Source: a virus
DNA length: 20,045 bases
Virus record (IMG/VR): IMGVR_UViG_3300033388_003413
Span: 1 to 20,045 of that record
Direction: 5' to 3' (one strand)
Both the position numbers and the translations under genes were made by a program. Positions 417-20,045 of the stretch are shown here, one piece after another (position 1 is the first letter of the stretch; every line of letters begins with the position of its first letter). A model generated the notes under the pieces. The model saw only the letters and a list, made by a program, of their open reading frames with translations, was not told the origin of the DNA and searched no databases.

Positions 417-3400
417 ATGTTAATTACACTACACTGTGGTGGAATGCCTTTCGATGGTACTACTATTGAAAGCAAATCCCTAGGCGGTTCAGAATCTGCT
501 GCTTATTATATGGCTAAAGAGCTTGCTGCTCTGGGTCACTCGGTGACACTGTTCACTAATACTACTGAAGAATCATTCTCAGACGAAGTACGCTATGTGC
601 CAATGGGTACATCATCTGAACAGTATCCACTTGGCGAGACATTCCATTTCTTTGCTGAGAATACTCCAACTGACGTCATGATCATACAACGTCATCCTCG
701 AGCATTCGATTTTCCCTGGGCAAGTAAAATAAACTTATGGTGGATACATGATTTAGCACTATACAGAAATACTCCAGTAGTTAATCAGATGATGTGGAAC
801 ATTGATGGAGTTCTATGTGTAAGTGAATGGCACAAGAAGCAAGTAGTAGAAGTATACAGTCTCAACCCCAGCATTGTCTATCCGATTACTAATGGGGTGG
901 ATCTTAGTTTGTTTGAAAATGATAAAAAAGATTGCTTAAAATCCGGCAAGTCTCTTGGGTTAAACCCAGAAACTACAGCTTTATTATATACATCAAGGCC
1001 AGAACGAGGTTTGGAAGCACTGGTTAAACCTAATGGTATCGTGGAGAAACTCTATGAAACTGATAAAAACTTCCATCTTTATGTCTGCGGTTATGATAAC
1101 ACAGTACCTCAGCAGCGCGATTATTATAATCACTTATGGAGCCGCTGTGACGCTTTACCTAATGTTACAAACTTAGGTTCTTTAACTAAGCAAGAACTTG
1201 CTGATGTTATGCGACAGTGTGACATGCACATCTATCCATCTACCTTTGAAGAGACTTCTTGTATAACTGCTATGGAATGTATGGCCGCAGGATTACCAAT
1301 GGTAGCATGCAAGGTCGGGGCATTGCCTGAAACTGTTAGAAATGCAGGAGTTATATTAATAGACTTACTAGATGATGGTAGTATTGATGAGACTGGATTT
1401 GAATATGCTATTGCAAACGCTATAGATTGCGAAGCGGCACCAATTTCTCTATTAGACACGCTACGAGATACTCAGCTATCTGCTTCTGAATATTACTCAT
1501 GGCAATTTGCTGCAGACAGAATGTTAAGTGCCGTATCGAATTGCTTCGAGACTTCTCGTGTTAGTGATGCTTCAGTTGTGAAAGAACTTATACAGATGAG
1601 TGATTACTATGCTACAGGGAGAATGGATCATCACTTTGATACAAGCAGTATAGATGCCGCAATAACAAAAGAACTAAGAGAATGCTACGACTTTACTAAA
1701 GAACCTATATGGGATAACCATTATGCAAACTACTACCAATACGAAAAAGACCGCGGAGTTAACTACGGGCCAGAAGATCTATCAAACAGTCATCGCTTTA
1801 TGCATGTGGCTAATATCATCAGTAATCTCCCTGCCGGTAGCACTGTACTTGATTACGGTTGCGCTCACGGACACTATACAATCAATCTGGCAAAAGCCTT
1901 CCCAGAACTTAACTTCATCGGGATCGACATCACAGAATCAAACATCGAAAAAGCAAAAGCATGGTGGGCTGATGTATGTTCCACAATGCAAGAAGGAGCC
2001 GATGCTGGACGGAGAGATAATCTTAAGTTCAGAGTCGGTCGCGTTGAAAACGGAGTCATCACAAATAGAATCGAACAAAAAGTCGGTAGTTCTGCACTAG
2101 CTATTGAGCATAACATTGCTGATTGTATCATTGCTGCAGAAGTACTAGAACATGTATCAAACCCAGAAGAACATGTGAACACTTTACAGTCTTACTTAAA
2201 ATCTGATGGGTTAATGTTAATCACGACACCTTATGGGCCGTGGGAAGCACAAGGATTCAAAGAACATTGGCCTTGGCGCGCTCATGTGCATCACTTCGAG
2301 CGTGAAGATCTGAGCGAGCTTTGGGGTTCTAACGAAAACTTTAAAGTTGTTAATGTACCAAGCGGTCGAGCTCCAAGTGGAGAATTGCTGGGTAGCTTTA
2401 TTACTACCTGGAATAATACAGGAATAAAATCTGGTGAAATTGACTATGCTCGCAAACTGTCATTAGTAGCCCCAAGACAAACTGTATCATGTTGCATGAT
2501 AGTTAAAGATGCAGCTTCAAGTATTCGACGTTGCTTAGAATCTGTGATGCCTTATGTAGACGAGTTAGTAATCGGGTTCGATGAGAGATGCGATTTAGAA
2601 ACACAGTTTTTAGTGAAGCACTACATTGAAGATAAATGGTTTGAGAAATCCTACATAGAGTTTTCGATTGATTCTCCTTTAGAAATAGGTTTTGATGCTG
2701 CGAGAAACGCTACCGCAGAAAAAGCTTCAGGTGATTGGATACTCTGGGTTGATGCTGATGAGTATTTATATAATGGTAAGAATCTAGCTAAGTACCTAAG
2801 AAATAATCAGTATAATGGCTATGCTATTCCACAACATCATTTTTCTATGCAGCCACTAGGTGTAGGAAAAACTGACTACCCTGTTAGATTGTTCAGAAGT
2901 AATAAAGGAATACAGTTCATGGGTAAAGTACATGAGCATCCTGAGCAAGTACTTAATGAAGGCGTTGGGCATGTTACTTCGATCCATAATCTTTCTATTT
3001 TACATGATGGATATACAGATGAAGCTACTCGTAGGAAACGATTCAGCAGAAATGTTGGTTTGCTTACGAAAGACCGAGAAGAGAATCCTGAGAGGCTGCT
3101 AGGTAAGTTCTTATGGTTACGTGACCTCGCTCAGGTATCTCAATGGGAACTTGAAGACACTCGGGGTAGGATTACTCAAGCAATAGTAAACAGAGTTGTA
3201 GAAGGTCTCGCATTGTGGAGAGAACTTTTAGAGAATGGAGATTTAAGAATATCAATAGATGCTCTTGAGTACTACTCTGCATTAAGTCGTATGAAAGGAG
3301 AGGGTTTTGAGATGAGCTTACAGCTCGATACGAGTAGCCATGGCACTGCAAAAGCAAATGAAGTTCGACCAGTACAAGCCTACTTCGATTCTAAAGAGGA

Positions 3401-3467
3401 TGCAGAAAAGCTAATGAGCTTAATCTTCAAGGAACGCACTAAACTATATGGGGTGAAATATCAATAA
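417..3467 (+). CDS. Three-domain GT4 glycosyltransferase / class I methyltransferase / GT2 glycosyltransferase
   Basis: This is a 1016-residue protein of three fused enzymes. Residues ~1-380 resemble GT-B family 4 transferases: an N-terminal GGSES loop (~23-27) and the E-x7-E pair E279/E287 within FEETSCITAMECMAAGLP, which contacts the nucleotide-sugar. Residues ~435-660 are a class I SAM methyltransferase: motif I VLDYGCAHGHY (477-487), an acidic GID after the second strand, and EVLEH (575-579). Residues ~690-900 are a GT-A family 2 transferase: VSCCMIVKD at 690 and the metal-binding DAD at 779-781. The tail (~900-1016) is unassigned. The AAGAGGA site at 401-407 sets the start. It sits between the esterase and head-tail connector genes and overlaps the latter by one base, so it is a late gene. 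It probably builds or modifies a methylated glycan on virion or host surface; the acceptor is unknown. Confidence 0.8.
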   Translation: MLITLHCGGMPFDGTTIESKSLGGSESAAYYMAKELAALGHSVTLFTNTTEESFSDEVRYVPMGTSSEQYPLGETFHFFAENTPTDVMIIQRHPRAFDFPWASKINLWWIHDLALYRNTPVVNQMMWNIDGVLCVSEWHKKQVVEVYSLNPSIVYPITNGVDLSLFENDKKDCLKSGKSLGLNPETTALLYTSRPERGLEALVKPNGIVEKLYETDKNFHLYVCGYDNTVPQQRDYYNHLWSRCDALPNVTNLGSLTKQELADVMRQCDMHIYPSTFEETSCITAMECMAAGLPMVACKVGALPETVRNAGVILIDLLDDGSIDETGFEYAIANAIDCEAAPISLLDTLRDTQLSASEYYSWQFAADRMLSAVSNCFETSRVSDASVVKELIQMSDYYATGRMDHHFDTSSIDAAITKELRECYDFTKEPIWDNHYANYYQYEKDRGVNYGPEDLSNSHRFMHVANIISNLPAGSTVLDYGCAHGHYTINLAKAFPELNFIGIDITESNIEKAKAWWADVCSTMQEGADAGRRDNLKFRVGRVENGVITNRIEQKVGSSALAIEHNIADCIIAAEVLEHVSNPEEHVNTLQSYLKSDGLMLITTPYGPWEAQGFKEHWPWRAHVHHFEREDLSELWGSNENFKVVNVPSGRAPSGELLGSFITTWNNTGIKSGEIDYARKLSLVAPRQTVSCCMIVKDAASSIRRCLESVMPYVDELVIGFDERCDLETQFLVKHYIEDKWFEKSYIEFSIDSPLEIGFDAARNATAEKASGDWILWVDADEYLYNGKNLAKYLRNNQYNGYAIPQHHFSMQPLGVGKTDYPVRLFRSNKGIQFMGKVHEHPEQVLNEGVGHVTSIHNLSILHDGYTDEATRRKRFSRNVGLLTKDREENPERLLGKFLWLRDLAQVSQWELEDTRGRITQAIVNRVVEGLALWRELLENGDLRISIDALEYYSALSRMKGEGFEMSLQLDTSSHGTAKANEVRPVQAYFDSKEDAEKLMSLIFKERTKLYGVKYQ

Positions 3468-14940: not shown

Positions 14941-14954
14941 TTAGAATATTCTAA
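14941..14954. repeat. 14-base perfect palindrome
   Basis: TTAGAATATTCTAA is its own reverse complement. It covers the stop codon of the dCMP deaminase gene and sits in the same convergent junction as the long stem-loop. It is AT-rich enough to be chance, but could be a protein binding site. Confidence 0.4.
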
Positions 14955-15385
14955 AGTTCTAGCCAAACTCTTCCTGCTTTCTCCCAAAGATCCTTAGACG
15001 CACTGTGGGGATATTTCTCGCTAAAGACTATAGTTTGACAAGAAGTATTAAGCAATAGCTTCACACAAGTTATACATGGTGAGTGCGTAACATAAGCAAC
15101 TTCTATTTCATTAACGTCTTTACATTGCAACAAAGCATTCTGCTCCGCGTGAATAGCTTCACAAGCACTTAGGTTTTCTCCTGACTTAGAAGCAGCAGCA
15201 GTTTTATTACACGGTTCTTCTTTAGTACAATTATGAAGACCTGCCGCAGTTCCGTTGTAACCCGTTGAAAGAATATGTCCTAAACCATCTACTAAGACAC
15301 AGCCGACAGATCTTCTACAGCAAGTTGCCCGAGTAGAAACTACTCGAGCTATATCCAAGAAATAAGAATCTTTATCAGGTCTCAT
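14951..15385 (-). CDS. dCMP deaminase
   Basis: A 144-residue zinc deaminase converting dCMP to dUMP. The catalytic signature is clear: H79-A-E81 (zinc ligand and proton shuttle), then SPC104-ITC107 supplying the two zinc cysteines. The front half has VGCVLVDG and the GYNGTAAGLHNC loop typical of dCMP deaminases, plus Cys residues (C22/C23, C53, C59, C75) that could form the second zinc site of T4-type enzymes. AAGGA lies 7 bases before the start. The ATG overlaps the stop of the upstream thymidylate-synthase-family gene (ATGA), so the two are coupled. It is the last gene of the leftward operon. In T4, deaminase and dCMP hydroxymethylase occur together, so its presence does not decide which way the pathway runs. 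Confidence 0.9.
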   Translation of the reverse strand: MRPDKDSYFLDIARVVSTRATCCRRSVGCVLVDGLGHILSTGYNGTAAGLHNCTKEEPCNKTAAASKSGENLSACEAIHAEQNALLQCKDVNEIEVAYVTHSPCITCVKLLLNTSCQTIVFSEKYPHSASKDLWEKAGRVWLEL

Positions 15386-16179
15386 TTTAAATCCTTAATC
15401 TGAAGCAAGAATGGACTATCAATAACTTCCCAATTCTCTAATCCAGCTTGTTCTAACAGATAAGTCAAATCATAAGGGCTATCAAACTCAAATAAATCAA
15501 TTGGATTAATTTCTTCACGCTCAAAGTTTTCTATTACTGATTCAGCTGCTTCAAAGTTATTCTCATATAAGTGTTGAGAACCCGTACTTAAGAATAAACT
15601 ACCAAGTTCTAAACCTGGATAATCATTAAGTAAACAGATAGCGACCCAAGCTGAGATCATCGAAAAGTTAAAAGTATCGTAAACCCAACCAAGCCAAGCA
15701 TCTGATGAACGCATGTTAGCTTTGCAATGTAGCTTATTGCCTCTAATAAACCATTGGAGATTTAATGTACATGGAATATCTTTTGAAGGACCAGGGTTTT
15801 CTCTCCAGATATTAAGTACAGCTTGTCTGGAATCAGCATCACGCTTTAAACATTGTACTACATAACTCAACTGGTCAATTACTTTTGGACCATAAGCTCC
15901 ATTAAACATCATTCCATCATCACTAAACTTTGCAATAGCTTTCATAAACCTTGTAATATCTTCTACTCGATTACTGCCACTTAAAATCCAATGAGCTTCA
16001 CCGCACATGAACTTATAATTCATATCACGTTGTGGAACTGTTATAATTGGTTGATTCATATCTATAACAGATTGATAGCCTATTATCTCTTTTGTTTTCA
16101 TGCCTCTGGGTTTAGAATTGACACCATGTTCCATTATAGCTGTTAGTAACATGTGCCATGATTCGTTAATATTATTCAT
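15382..16179 (-). CDS. Thymidylate synthase-family enzyme, predicted dCMP hydroxymethylase
   Basis: A 265-residue folate-dependent pyrimidine C5 enzyme. Conserved family points: catalytic C137 in DIPCTLNLQW, Glu E61 (GEAHWILSG), Y96-G97, phosphate-binding R118 (DADSRQAV), R157-S158-S159-D160, L163-G164, and H-L-Y near the end (SQHLYEN). The telling site is D168 (LGWVYD). Counting from R157/D160/G164, it aligns with E. coli TS N177, the Asn that reads uracil. T4 dCMP hydroxymethylase has Asp (D179) there, and also Thr after the catalytic Cys, as here (C137-T138), where TS has His. The C-terminus lacks the usual TS ending. I infer dCMP is the substrate, giving 5-hydroxymethyl-dCMP. Ordinary TS activity or dCMP methylation are alternatives. 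It overlaps its upstream gene by 8 bases; AAGG is 8 bases upstream. Confidence 0.7.
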   Translation of the reverse strand: MNNINESWHMLLTAIMEHGVNSKPRGMKTKEIIGYQSVIDMNQPIITVPQRDMNYKFMCGEAHWILSGSNRVEDITRFMKAIAKFSDDGMMFNGAYGPKVIDQLSYVVQCLKRDADSRQAVLNIWRENPGPSKDIPCTLNLQWFIRGNKLHCKANMRSSDAWLGWVYDTFNFSMISAWVAICLLNDYPGLELGSLFLSTGSQHLYENNFEAAESVIENFEREEINPIDLFEFDSPYDLTYLLEQAGLENWEVIDSPFLLQIKDLK

Positions 16180-17227
16180 TACTTTTACCTTTTAATTCAG
16201 TTAAACGGCCGATTGTTGTTTTGCAATAATCGGTTAAGTTACAGCCATCAATTTCAAAATCATAATCTATATAATCTTCACGAAGCATTAAACCTCCTGC
16301 TTCAATTATATGATTTGCATACTCTGATTTAAACTTAGTATTTGCTATGCCATGATAAATAGATCCATAGTACTTAAATATATTATCGATATTCTCATAC
16401 ATTTCTTTGCGTTCAGATTTAAGAGAATTAAATCGCTCAATTCCACGATTAACATTTAAAGGCTTACATACAATATTAAAAGCGCGGTTACTTATCAACA
16501 ATGAATCACAATTATGATGTAAGCCTTCCCAATTAGTACCATCCCTAAATGCTTCAGAATAGCAGATTTCACTTAACCATGCTCTATCAAGTATAACAAG
16601 ATTATCTTTTGACAAATCAACTGCTTCTTGTATAGCATCAATCATATAGCTATCCATAACTTCTTCTAATTCTTTAGACCAAGTTAAATGGATTATTTTA
16701 GCTCCGTACATTTCTTGGAACTTTTCGGCGAGGGTAGTTTTACCACATCCATCAGGTCCATCTAAAACAATAATGCCTTTCGGCTGTCCAACTAAGTCGG
16801 TTAATATTGGAGATTTCCATCCATCAGGTTTTACAAGATCCCGCTTAAACCCACGCTTAGATGCCTCATTAGATCCAGCAAGTTCTTTTTGAAGATTAGT
16901 TGTCATTACACGCATGAAGCCTTCATCCCATGGAAAGCCTTGGCGCTCAGCAGTTCCCATAGTAAATACTCCAAGATCTATAAGAGCATCAAATTGACTT
17001 TCTAAATCTTGATCTTCTTTATATTTTACTTGGTTTATCCGTTGATTAAAGATTCTTATTTCCTCATCAAAATCAGTCTCAAATACAGCGCTAATGTACT
17101 CCATTAACTCTTCATACATCGCTTTACAGCGAAATATTGCTTCTTCTTTAGTTAAAGGTTGTGGACCAATATTATTGCTAAGTTGAAACTTATCATGCAT
17201 TTGTTTTACTAATTGAAAGTTATTCAC
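16172..17227 (-). CDS. MazG-like NTP pyrophosphohydrolase fused to thymidylate-kinase-like nucleotide kinase
   Basis: A 351-residue fusion. Residues ~1-140 fit the all-alpha MazG/dCTPase superfamily: E39-E40-L-M-E43 metal ligands, D80-A-L-I-D84 with the hydrophobic helix after it, RQGFPWDEGFMRV, a NLQKE motif and the closing KPDGWKSP (133-140). These enzymes cut (d)NTPs to monophosphate. Residues ~150-350 are a P-loop kinase: LDGPDGCGKTT (Walker A G157-T165), then LVILDRAWLSEICYSE, the DR-x(n)-S-x-x-Y block of thymidylate/nucleotide kinases. The start is GTG 17227, with AGGAG 6 bases upstream. One polypeptide thus combines dNTP hydrolysis and dNMP phosphorylation, the T4 gp56 and gp1 activities, next to the predicted hydroxymethylase. 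Substrates are inferred. Confidence 0.75.
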   Translation of the reverse strand: MNNFQLVKQMHDKFQLSNNIGPQPLTKEEAIFRCKAMYEELMEYISAVFETDFDEEIRIFNQRINQVKYKEDQDLESQFDALIDLGVFTMGTAERQGFPWDEGFMRVMTTNLQKELAGSNEASKRGFKRDLVKPDGWKSPILTDLVGQPKGIIVLDGPDGCGKTTLAEKFQEMYGAKIIHLTWSKELEEVMDSYMIDAIQEAVDLSKDNLVILDRAWLSEICYSEAFRDGTNWEGLHHNCDSLLISNRAFNIVCKPLNVNRGIERFNSLKSERKEMYENIDNIFKYYGSIYHGIANTKFKSEYANHIIEAGGLMLREDYIDYDFEIDGCNLTDYCKTTIGRLTELKGKSNE

Positions 17228-17236
17228 TTTATTCTC

Positions 17237-18136
17237 CTATTGGATTATAGATTTTTTAAGTTCCGGTGATTCAAAGTTCTCATTGTCTTTATGACAACAA
17301 ACATGAGTTATGTTACGAGCAGCTTCTGGATATTTAGGGCTTAAGAAACAACCTAGCAAATCATTGCTATAGAATTCACCGACAGTTTTATAAAGAGCGA
17401 TTTCATCTTTAGTTGCTACTTTCTTTAAGTCATTCCAGTTGCCAAATGTTCCAAACTGCTTAGCTATATTAAAGCCTGCAGATTGAAGTTCGTCTTCTAT
17501 TTCTGATTTACGTAATTCGTTAATATGATTCTTTGCCATTTTATATCGGTCAGAATAAACAGGTATACTAAATATTAGTATACCATCATCTGCTAATAAC
17601 TTTTTAAATGCTCTAAGCATCTTACGGCCATGTTTCATTTGCATGTGTTCGAATACTTCAAAGTTAACTATAACATCGAACTTACCATACTGCTTTCTAA
17701 GAGCTTTCCAGTTGTTAATGATGTTAAACTCATCTTTAACTTCAAAATTCTTACGAGTAAGTGGTTCTTTAATTTTATTTAAATCAACGCCTACATATAA
17801 TTCTGGAACTGTATTTGGATTAGCACCGCCAAGGCTTCTTGCAAAGGGCATTTCTTGACCGCAACCTACATCAAGAACTCGGGTCTTGCGATTAATGTAT
17901 TTACCAGCGAAGCCCCAGCGGAATATATGGCCTAAATAATCTTTATGGGGCTGATGTTTGAACTGAGCCATTTTAAGCTGTGTCCGATCGAATTCGCGAG
18001 TAACTTCTTTACCATCTTTAGCTCGAGATTCTGTAGTTTTAGATTTACGTTTAGAACGCTTAGCTTTGCGCTTTTCTTTTTCAGATCGTTTAAAAGACTC
18101 TTGGGCTTTTTCTAATATGGATTTACGGTAACCCAT
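17237..18136 (-). CDS. Class I SAM-dependent methyltransferase with basic N-terminus
   Basis: A 299-residue protein. Residues ~1-50 are very Lys/Arg-rich (SEKEKRKAKRSKRKSK), suggesting contact with nucleic acid. A Rossmann methyltransferase follows: motif I VLDVGCGQEMPFARS, motif II YVGVDLNKI with the ribose-binding Asp, motif IV VNFEVFEHM, and a post-motif strand LLADDGILIFSIP. Residues after ~230 contain a Cys/His cluster (HVCCHKD) of unknown role. It has no N6-adenine (DPPY) or C5-cytosine (PC) target motif, so it does not look like a standard DNA methylase. AGGAG is 8 bases before the ATG. The position in the nucleotide cassette makes a role in base modification possible, though a small-molecule, RNA or protein target is equally open. 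Confidence 0.75.
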   Translation of the reverse strand: MGYRKSILEKAQESFKRSEKEKRKAKRSKRKSKTTESRAKDGKEVTREFDRTQLKMAQFKHQPHKDYLGHIFRWGFAGKYINRKTRVLDVGCGQEMPFARSLGGANPNTVPELYVGVDLNKIKEPLTRKNFEVKDEFNIINNWKALRKQYGKFDVIVNFEVFEHMQMKHGRKMLRAFKKLLADDGILIFSIPVYSDRYKMAKNHINELRKSEIEDELQSAGFNIAKQFGTFGNWNDLKKVATKDEIALYKTVGEFYSNDLLGCFLSPKYPEAARNITHVCCHKDNENFESPELKKSIIQ

Positions 18137-18971: not shown

Positions 18972-19181
18972 TTATTTATGATCTAACCGCTTCATTAGAT
19001 CCCTTAAAGTTTTTCTTACTTGGCTTTCATGGCAAGTTGAAGTAGCAAATCCAGGAGAGAACTTAGTTGGCTCTCTTAGTTTTACTTGGACTAAACATTG
19101 CTTCAGATCTTCATTCTGAAGAGTGACGGAGTATAGAAACTCCGCCCCTTTTCTTACTTTTAACGTTAGTCCTTTTTCGAC
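18972..19181 (-). CDS. Candidate -1 frameshift extension of the lysine-rich protein (69 codons)
   Basis: On the minus strand, this frame opens at the A AAA AAG heptamer at 19181-19187 and runs 69 sense codons to TAA. It contains no ATG, GTG or TTG until codon 63, so it lacks a usual start. The product looks like a folded domain: GLTLKVRKGAEFLYSVTLQ, EDLKQCLVQVKL, FSPGFATSTCHES, then a helix VRKTLRDLMKRLDHK. The fusion from 19552 would be ~193 residues, giving a lysine-rich linker between two domains. Alternatives are a natural or sequencing indel in the six-A run, or an unusual start such as CTG at codon 26. It fills an otherwise empty 198-base gap and ends 4 bases before the next gene. Confidence 0.55.
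   Translation of the reverse strand, partial: VEKGLTLKVRKGAEFLYSVTLQNEDLKQCLVQVKLREPTKFSPGFATSTCHESQVRKTLRDLMKRLDHK
19127..19144. repeat. Small stem-loop (CGGAGT / ACTCCG, 6-base loop)
   Basis: A perfect 6-base inverted repeat with a 6-base loop, inside the -1 frame extension. It is GC-richer than its surroundings. It has no U-tract in either direction, so a terminator is unlikely, and it is 36 bases past the candidate slip site. Confidence 0.3.
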
Positions 19182-19552
19182 TTTTTTGAACGTTTGCGCT
19201 CTTTCTTTTCTTTAACCTTCTTTTCTTTAGCAGGTTTTTTGGTAACTTTCTTTTCTTTAGCTACTTTTTTAACTCGCTTTTCTTTAACTGCACTTTTCTT
19301 TTTAGAAGGCTTTTCTTTCTTAACAGTCTTTTCTTTAGCTACAGTCCTACGAGCTATATACTTCGCGTGTTGTTCAGGTGTAATGTCACCATCACGTTTT
19401 AACTGAGCTGAGTAGAACTTAACATGCGATTCATCAGCTACAGAGTTTGGACATTTCTTTGCAACTGCCTTAAGGATTTTATCCATAGTCCAGCCATTGG
19501 TAATGCCTTTGACGACTACAGATTTTACTGTAGTTTTTACTGCTTTAGCCAT
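19166..19552 (-). CDS. Lysine-rich protein with small N-terminal domain and H1-like tail
   Basis: A 128-residue protein in the zero frame. Residues ~15-70 form a small helical domain (GWTMDKILKAVAKKCPNS, then HVKFYSAQLKRDGDI) shared with the next gene to the right (pattern FPKS, H-[IV]-x-x-Y, L-x-RDG, ARR). Residues ~75-128 are repeats of the A/K-E-K-K type (VAKEKKVTKKPAKEKK), resembling histone H1 or bacterial H1-like tails, so it probably binds nucleic acid through charge. AGGAG is 8 bases before the ATG. Just before its stop the frame meets A AAA AAG, and the -1 frame continues for 69 codons, so the true product may be longer. Confidence 0.7.
   Translation of the reverse strand: MAKAVKTTVKSVVVKGITNGWTMDKILKAVAKKCPNSVADESHVKFYSAQLKRDGDITPEQHAKYIARRTVAKEKTVKKEKPSKKKSAVKEKRVKKVAKEKKVTKKPAKEKKVKEKKERKRSKKSKKD
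19181..19187 (-). promoter_or_regulatory. Candidate -1 frameshift site (A AAA AAG) in the lysine-rich gene
   Basis: The zero frame reads TCA AAA AAG TCG, so the heptamer is in slippage phase, like the tail chaperone site at 6235-6241. It lies five codons before the zero-frame stop at 19166-19168. The -1 frame is closed upstream by a TAA nine codons before the shift, so a productive shift must occur in this short window, exactly where the heptamer is. A 6-base stem (19127-19132 with 19139-19144) lies 36 bases downstream, too far to be a classical stimulator. Confidence 0.55.
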
Positions 19553-19605: not shown

Positions 19606-19983
19606 TTATTTGGTTTGGGTTTTTAACCAATCTTTATAAGCTTTAGATCTTCTTGGTGCATATTGAGGACCAAGGATTCCATCACGGAATAATGTCGAGC
19701 GATACCAAGAGATATGGTTATTGTTAAATGCAGACTTTGGAAATGCTTTTTGGATAAGCTCAACGATCTCTTTATCAGTTTTATCTTCAAGAATTAAATC
19801 CAGAACCATAGTCTTTATAGAAAATGCTGGTTTAGCTTCTGGATAAAGTTCTTCTAATTTCTTTTTGATTTTAGGAACTGATGGACCAGATGCTATTTTC
19901 TTATCGTCAAGAAATGCATCCAAAGTATGTTTGGTTCTTCTAACTAAATCAAAAGTTATATTGTTTACTATTACTTGTTTCAT
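19606..19983 (-). CDS. Hypothetical protein with the small domain shared by the lysine-rich neighbour
   Basis: I choose ATG 19983 (125 residues), which has GGAG about 10 bases upstream. An in-frame ATG at 20028 would add 15 residues but has only a weak site. The N-terminal part has a strand pair (VIVNNITFDLVRRTKH) and a helix with SVPKIKKKLEELYP. Residues ~55-110 hold the shared domain: TDKEIVELIQKAFPKS, HISWYRSTLFRDG, YAPRRSK. This [IV]-x-WY-R/K-S-x-L pattern recurs in phage proteins and looks like a small helical, perhaps nucleic-acid-binding, fold. No catalytic motif is seen. The stop lies ~53 bases before the lysine-rich gene, whose strong AGGAG suggests independent initiation. Confidence 0.65.
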   Translation of the reverse strand: MKQVIVNNITFDLVRRTKHTLDAFLDDKKIASGPSVPKIKKKLEELYPEAKPAFSIKTMVLDLILEDKTDKEIVELIQKAFPKSAFNNNHISWYRSTLFRDGILGPQYAPRRSKAYKDWLKTQTK

Positions 19984-20045
19984 AATCTTAATTCTCCGGG
20001 GTAAATTTTGATATAAATACTTGGCCAAATGATGCTTTCTTTTTG

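Follow-up and report, generated by a model that had tools for sequence, protein, structure and literature searches.

A phage operon predicted to hydroxymethylate cytosine is headed by a putative tailoring methyltransferase

Within a complete 20,045-base viral record (IMG/VR IMGVR_UViG_3300033388_003413, 39% G+C; hereafter the window), which is probably a fragment of a phage genome, we analyzed a leftward operon that likely directs the hydroxymethylation of cytosine. A preliminary description had read three of its genes as a compact T4-like cassette for hydroxymethylcytosine, consisting of a hydrolase-kinase fusion, a dCMP hydroxymethylase and a dCMP deaminase. These genes lie where it placed them, on the minus strand and overlapping by 4 and 8 bases (Table 1). 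They do not make up the whole set, however: a fourth gene, encoding an S-adenosylmethionine (SAM)-dependent methyltransferase, heads the operon 9 bases upstream of the fusion gene and had been overlooked. This methyltransferase, which is tied to the cassette and exchanged in other phages with an enzyme that decorates 5-hydroxymethylcytosine (5hmC), is the more interesting part of the operon, and its presence suggests an altered base that has not yet been described.

Base and product specificity of the thymidylate synthase homolog

In a MAFFT alignment, D168 of the thymidylate synthase (TS)-family protein shares a column with D179 of T4 gp42 and with N177 of E. coli ThyA, the uracil-reading Asn that is a hallmark of TS, and two hhalign comparisons give the same pairing. 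The preliminary description had proposed this replacement, along with a Thr after the catalytic Cys as a second trait of T4 gp42. Both assignments stand: no Asn occupies the base-reading position of the window protein, and Thr138 directly follows Cys137, as in T4 gp42 and in MilA, the CMP hydroxymethylase of mildiomycin biosynthesis. With columns numbered by E. coli ThyA, position 147 is Thr in these three proteins, His in ThyA, Asn in SPO1 gp29 (a dUMP hydroxymethylase) and Pro in gp63 of phage AXL1, a near relative of the 5-methylcytosine (5mC) phage XP12; column 177 is Asn in SPO1 gp29 and Asp in AXL1 gp63. All 163 distinct relatives have Asp at column 177, a residue shared by descent and hence not 163 independent cases, and position 147 is Thr in 158 of them, Ser in 4 and His in 1. 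Asp143, three residues before the Cys, is likewise found in all 163, in T4 gp42 and in SPO1 gp29, and is absent from ThyA and AXL1. The catalytic Cys and the residues that bind phosphate and sugar are retained in the window protein (C146, R126, R166, D169, H207, Y209, E58). Positions 177 and 147 are the two most associated with modified-cytosine contigs according to PMC8670742; further literature consulted comprises PMC7504290, PMC9414467 and PMC9206674. Recovering the relatives required profiles, as a single-protein search of viral contigs with the window protein returned nothing. Judged by these residues, the enzyme can be predicted with high confidence to take a cytosine substrate.

The residue at column 177 cannot decide what the enzyme makes, because the Asn177-to-Asp change alone is stated to convert TS to a dCMP methylase (PMC8670742). 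The C-terminal closing segment of TS does not separate hydroxymethylase from methylase either, since columns 261-264 are empty in the window protein and T4 gp42 and also in AXL1. Other observations favor hydroxymethyl over methyl. The solved structure nearest to the predicted one (pLDDT 94) is MilA, with Z 26.2 and an rmsd of 2.6 over 254 residues, and the best TS reaches Z 24.1; the 50 structure rows listed do not include T4 dCMP hydroxymethylase, but such a list does not exclude it. MilA is the best match by sequence too. In a tree of the kind the preliminary description had called for, a 100/96 branch parts ThyA and AXL1 from T4 gp42, SPO1 gp29 and the window clade, which places the window protein on the hydroxymethylase side, on very long branches. 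A methylase yields dihydrofolate and gains from a dihydrofolate reductase (DHFR), and hydroxymethylases need none (PMC5175136); we detected DHFR in 0 of 42 cassette records, the AXL1 control being positive at slightly below the family cut-off, and it is not among the open reading frames (ORFs) called in the window. Finally, some other phages encode a carbamoyltransferase in this operon, an enzyme that needs a hydroxyl and so supports a hydroxymethyl product. Together, these data make hydroxymethyl the very likely product. The dCMP hydroxymethylase of the preliminary description is thus well supported by its residues, its place in the tree, the nearest structure, the gene order and the lack of DHFR, whereas plain hydroxymethylcytosine is probably not the end product, because the cassette has an additional SAM-dependent methyltransferase.

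The MazG-kinase protein comprises a MazG domain (residues ~1-143; EELME at 39, QFDALID at 78) and a kinase domain (residues ~150-351; Walker A at 157, DRAWLSE at 214). The former matches PRA-PH/MazG at 4.1e-6, with 27.5 bits against a cut-off of 21.3 and an EExxE-type motif present; the latter matches Thymidylate_kin/AAA at ~5e-6 within the full fusion and at 1.1e-6 as the kinase half alone, with 29 bits against a cut-off of 27. PHROG matches are to nucleotide pyrophosphohydrolase and thymidylate kinase. Both halves of the proposed hydrolase-kinase fusion are therefore confirmed, but the fusion itself is an optional variant of what are usually two genes: it recurs in L021, L022, L023, L046 and others (L numbers denote loci from our searches) and is split in phage AXL3 and most relatives. 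A single-protein search of viral contigs with the fusion found distant MazG genes only. Split-type kinases of ~330 aa, such as L008:9022-10005, carry an additional C-terminal domain of ~130 aa, absent from the window kinase, that looks like a uracil-DNA-glycosylase fold and has no Pfam match. Elsewhere a protein of 122-131 aa sits in the kinase's place between MazG and TS (L115:7157-7534, L144:7163-7546, L155:7214-7609, L140:7361-7729), assigned in L144 to PHROG 18404, hydrolase.

The methyltransferase and the first position of the operon

To follow the operon across the collection, we used the best 80 of 341, 277 and 347 relatives and merged loci identical over the last 150 TS residues (or methyltransferase residues where no TS was present), reducing 239 loci to 176. 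In the TS profile search, the order methyltransferase, MazG, kinase, TS, deaminase is conserved in 39 of 80 loci. In a further 32 only kinase and TS are present, 6 have no detectable methyltransferase, 2 have the methyltransferase and no detectable kinase, and the last shows nothing more, its stretch ending 125 bases upstream. A same-strand gene of ~610 aa, read as a DNA polymerase, comes next in 68 loci. The search with the methyltransferase alone gave 84 loci, 71 of which contain a TS within the stretch, always with Asp177; of the remaining 13 contigs, 8 were searched over their full length and 4 of these proved to have a TS, again all Asp. Among 50,697 phage records, the window methyltransferase matches only 5 (AXL3 in two records, PW916, MW202621 and MW202510), all of which carry the cassette. 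Matches occur in 11 of 72,556 plasmids, at 27-32% identity over 38-66% of the length.

The methyltransferase family has the invariants H64, D66, H70, R73, W74, GCG 91-93, EH 163-164, NH 203-204, E207 and RN 274-275. Its predicted fold is class I (pLDDT 87), with CmoM first among the structure matches at Z 18.2 and several rows tied within one Z unit. In E. coli, the target of CmoM is the C5 side chain of a tRNA uridine. The nearest methyltransferase, at 78% identity, is that of L183. This 10 kb contig, which was assigned to the genome bin of an uncultured Mollicutes, also carries a fused MazG-kinase and an Asp-type TS and may represent the host or a mis-binned phage.

In L052 and L198, a carbamoyltransferase takes the methyltransferase's place. 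The L052 enzyme matches 11 phage records, four of which we examined: Xp15, Effie and MD-2021a have the order carbamoyltransferase, MazG, kinase, Asp-type TS, deaminase; in Bacteroides phage BF503P2, the carbamoyltransferase gene lies close to an Asp-type TS of that phage. Such a carbamoyltransferase has been shown biochemically to act on 5-hydroxymethyldeoxycytidine (5hmdC) and its triphosphate, 5hmdCTP (PMC8670742); the main text of that paper names no methyltransferase domain. The methyltransferase is present in 135 of the 176 distinct loci, the carbamoyltransferase in 2 and both in none, and the window, having a methyltransferase before MazG, falls outside the carbamoyltransferase group. 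Among loci with TS and deaminase, the methyltransferase is found in 114 of 127; by eye, the 13 without it include 6 that end short upstream, the 2 with the carbamoyltransferase, L091 with a DNA-methylase-like gene and L078 with a family of unknown function nearby. Because a carbamoyltransferase class known to act on 5hmC fills exactly the methyltransferase's place, the first gene of the operon is probably a swappable tailoring slot. Read most simply, the product of this gene decorates the hydroxymethyl group, with the methyltransferase as a second type of decorator.

Two further gene families occur at or near this slot. ORFs resembling DNA C5-cytosine methylases are present in 11 of the 176 distinct loci, beside the cassette methyltransferase (L124:6852-7961, L146:6753-8288, L164:6795-8117), fused to it (L112:4810-6819) or in its slot (L091:2877-5489), with Pfam DNA_methylase matches in L091, L112, L124 and L164; such genes are odd where C5 of cytosine should already be substituted. 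A family of ~340 aa, PHROG 14998 (function not known), stands by Asp-type cassettes (L078:1167-2174, L111:4895-5965, L120:7158-8276, L219:3646-4662), followed in L120 by a UDP-galactopyranose mutase gene, and possibly represents another decorating enzyme. We considered the near-slot proteins of L078, L111, L120, L091 and L219 as GT-B glycosyltransferases and dropped this idea, finding no Pfam match for three members, no PDB match for one and only the unknown PHROG for two.

The conserved residues, the order of the genes, the restricted occurrence of the methyltransferase family and the exchange at the slot lead us to infer a route by which the cassette would replace cytosine in the phage genome. 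The MazG-like domain would cut dCTP to dCMP and thereby take away the usual precursor. The TS-like enzyme, with Cys137 as nucleophile and Asp168 reading cytosine, would then move the methylene of CH2-tetrahydrofolate to C5 of dCMP, and water would convert this adduct to 5-hydroxymethyl-dCMP. The fused kinase would begin the conversion of this nucleotide to the triphosphate for incorporation by the phage polymerase, and the deaminase would convert some of the dCMP to dUMP, from which thymidylate is made. The methyltransferase would modify the hydroxymethylated cytosine, as nucleotide or in DNA, with the newly introduced hydroxyl as the most likely site. That it acts on hydroxymethylated cytosine is probable, because its slot is exchanged with a 5hmC carbamoyltransferase, and the explanation as a whole, a hydroxymethylcytosine cassette with a tailoring methyltransferase, is nearly as probable. 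We propose the O-methyl product, 5-methoxymethylcytosine, tentatively; still more tentative is its extension to the whole phage group, in which a dedicated SAM-dependent methyltransferase in a swappable slot would lead to replacement of cytosine by this base.

Restriction resistance of phage AXL3 and competing explanations

Stenotrophomonas phage AXL3 shares the cassette genes and their order. According to the AXL3 paper, only 2 of 37 enzymes cut the phage DNA, namely TasI and Tru1I, which recognize sites made up of A and T alone; its authors suspected altered G or C, yet gave the cassette genes to thymidylate synthesis and left the resistance unexplained. The enzymes that failed include KpnI and Eam1105I, for which we count 10 and 4 sites, respectively, in the 20.7 kb of AXL3 scanned. 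XP12 DNA, with 100% 5mC, is cut completely by KpnI and AhdI (PMC7653180), and the AXL3 laboratory observed partial cutting of AXL1 DNA by KpnI and Eam1105I. Because AXL3 DNA resists enzymes that cut 5mC DNA, its modified base is probably not 5mC. Neither QueC and TGT nor a C5 DNA methylase was detected in AXL3, and we therefore set aside a 7-deazaguanine pathway and C5 methylation as causes. The cassette is a candidate cause of the resistance; we found no report in the open-licence literature of a cytosine modification in AXL3.

A first competing explanation is plain 5hmC, as the preliminary description proposed, with the methyltransferase serving an unrelated role such as RNA or protein methylation. 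The residues and neighboring genes suffice for 5hmC, the methyltransferase resembles general class I enzymes including the RNA methyltransferases Hen1 and CmoM, and cassettes lacking it exist, as in the 32 loci with kinase and TS only. Its restriction to cassette-bearing phages and the filling of its slot by a 5hmC carbamoyltransferase class speak against an unrelated role, and we consider plain 5hmC unlikely. An XP12-type dCMP methylase, giving a phage with 5mC, is improbable. It would draw on the ability of Asp177 alone to create such a methylase and on the Asp177 of AXL1, which we used as a proxy for XP12 and whose 5mC is its authors' inference from XP12 kinship and digests. AXL1, however, differs at positions 143 (N), 147 (P), 127 and 80, sits with ThyA in the tree and has an adjacent DHFR gene, whereas DHFR was not detected in the 42 cassette records; the KpnI and Eam1105I digests of AXL3 also argue against 5mC. 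An ordinary thymidylate pathway of deaminase, synthase and thymidylate kinase would fit the family names and the AXL3 authors' annotation of the same genes, but would have to accommodate the exchange of Asn177 for Asp in all 163 relatives and an AXL3 DNA phenotype that requires a modified base. Because AXL3 and PW916 carry a separate ThyX, the TS-like enzyme is moreover dispensable for dTMP there, and we regard this pathway as very improbable.

Several observations weigh against a hydroxymethylcytosine cassette with a tailoring methyltransferase. Resistance to most enzymes is already conferred by plain 5hmC (186 of 227 for T4gt; PMC7653180), and the AXL3 digests are compatible with any modification of C or G. 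The carbamoyltransferase phages' TS proteins are only 25-27% identical to that of the window, and the untruncated loci L046, L207 and L254 have the cassette with no recognized methyltransferase or substitute. Conversely, L111, L121, L137 and L181 have the methyltransferase and no TS in whole-record searches, though these may be fragments. The likeness to CmoM is a hint only and does not fix the acceptor atom, because the fold is common and the rows are tied. Several tree branches are very long, that of T4 gp42 reaching 9.85. The window, being probably a fragment, leaves any tailoring genes elsewhere in the genome out of sight.

If the proposed route is correct, the altered cytosine is predicted to block bacterial defense enzymes, and as a methyl ether the hydroxyl would be shielded from glucosyltransferases and 5hmC-recognizing enzymes. 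The operon would be modular, keeping a hydroxymethylcytosine core and exchanging the tailoring enzyme, such that the various occupants of the slot (carbamoyl, methyl, DNA-methylase-like) offer leads to DNA bases not yet known. The methyltransferase would extend the enzyme tools available for 5hmC, and a testable cause would be at hand for the restriction resistance of AXL3, which has already been cultured. In the open-licence literature, we found no report of 5-methoxymethylcytosine in phage DNA, no paper that brings together dCMP hydroxymethylase, MazG and dCMP deaminase, and no title describing this cassette.

Operon layout and comparison with known systems

Tail, endolysin and similar genes of the window run rightward, and the operon runs leftward from 14951. 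By eye, an AGGAG- or AAGG-like stretch precedes the start of all four operon genes. Megablast of the whole window against phage records gave no match. Among the tail genes, 417-3467 encodes a 1016 aa chain with glycosyltransferase group 1, methyltransferase and glycosyltransferase family 2 domains. At the other end, the 128 aa protein of 19166-19552 has a lysine-rich histone-H1-like tail, and its N-terminal part resembles part of the adjoining 19606-20028 protein.

Table 1. Genes of the operon in the window
Feature	Position	Strand	Evidence
SAM-dependent methyltransferase, 299 aa, first cassette gene, proposed tailoring enzyme	17237..18136	-	Pfam Methyltransf_23 5.6e-18
MazG/NTP-pyrophosphohydrolase and thymidylate-kinase-like fusion	16172..17227	-	Pfam PRA-PH, Thymidylate_kin; PHROG
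Thymidylate-synthase-family enzyme, predicted dCMP 5-hydroxymethylase (C137, T138, D168)	15382..16179	-	Pfam Thymidylat_synt 3.8e-25
dCMP deaminase (HAE at 79, PCITC at 103)	14951..15385	-	Pfam dCMP_cyt_deam_1 1.4e-18; PHROG dCMP deaminase 2.5e-40

Among known systems, the cassettes of AXL3 and Pseudoxanthomonas phage PW916 share the gene order of the window and its convergent arrangement with endolysin and tail genes; they differ in having separate MazG and kinase genes and a TS ~45% identical to the window's, and were published as thymidylate synthesis. The 5hmC carbamoyltransferase cassettes of Xp15, Effie and MD-2021a (PMC8670742) share the order hydrolase, kinase, Asp-type TS, deaminase, and differ in the first gene. 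The XP12/AXL1 5mC cassette (MazG, TS, deaminase, DHFR) has Asp177, MazG and deaminase in common with the window, whereas it includes DHFR, has no kinase or methyltransferase annotated beside it and encodes a methylase-side TS. MilA has Asp and Thr at the same columns as the window enzyme, but acts mainly on CMP, also using dCMP, and has extra C-terminal helices (PMC5175136).

T4 gp42, which works alongside the dCTPase gp56, cd and beta-glucosyltransferase, resembles the window enzyme in Asp177, the Thr after the Cys, the Asp three residues before it and the lack of the TS C-terminus. In T4, however, genes 42 and 56 lie ~9 kb apart, whereas the window's cassette is a single operon that includes a methyltransferase gene and encodes a thymidylate-kinase-like enzyme. 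T4 decorates its base with glucose; a T4-type glucosyltransferase was detected in 0 of 37 cassette records, with T4 itself as the positive control. The preliminary description had assigned the remaining T4 steps to the fusion protein, and a dCTPase-like domain followed by a nucleotide kinase agrees with this, although the kinase is thymidylate-kinase-like. The cassette is T4-like in its logic and is not a T4 cassette.

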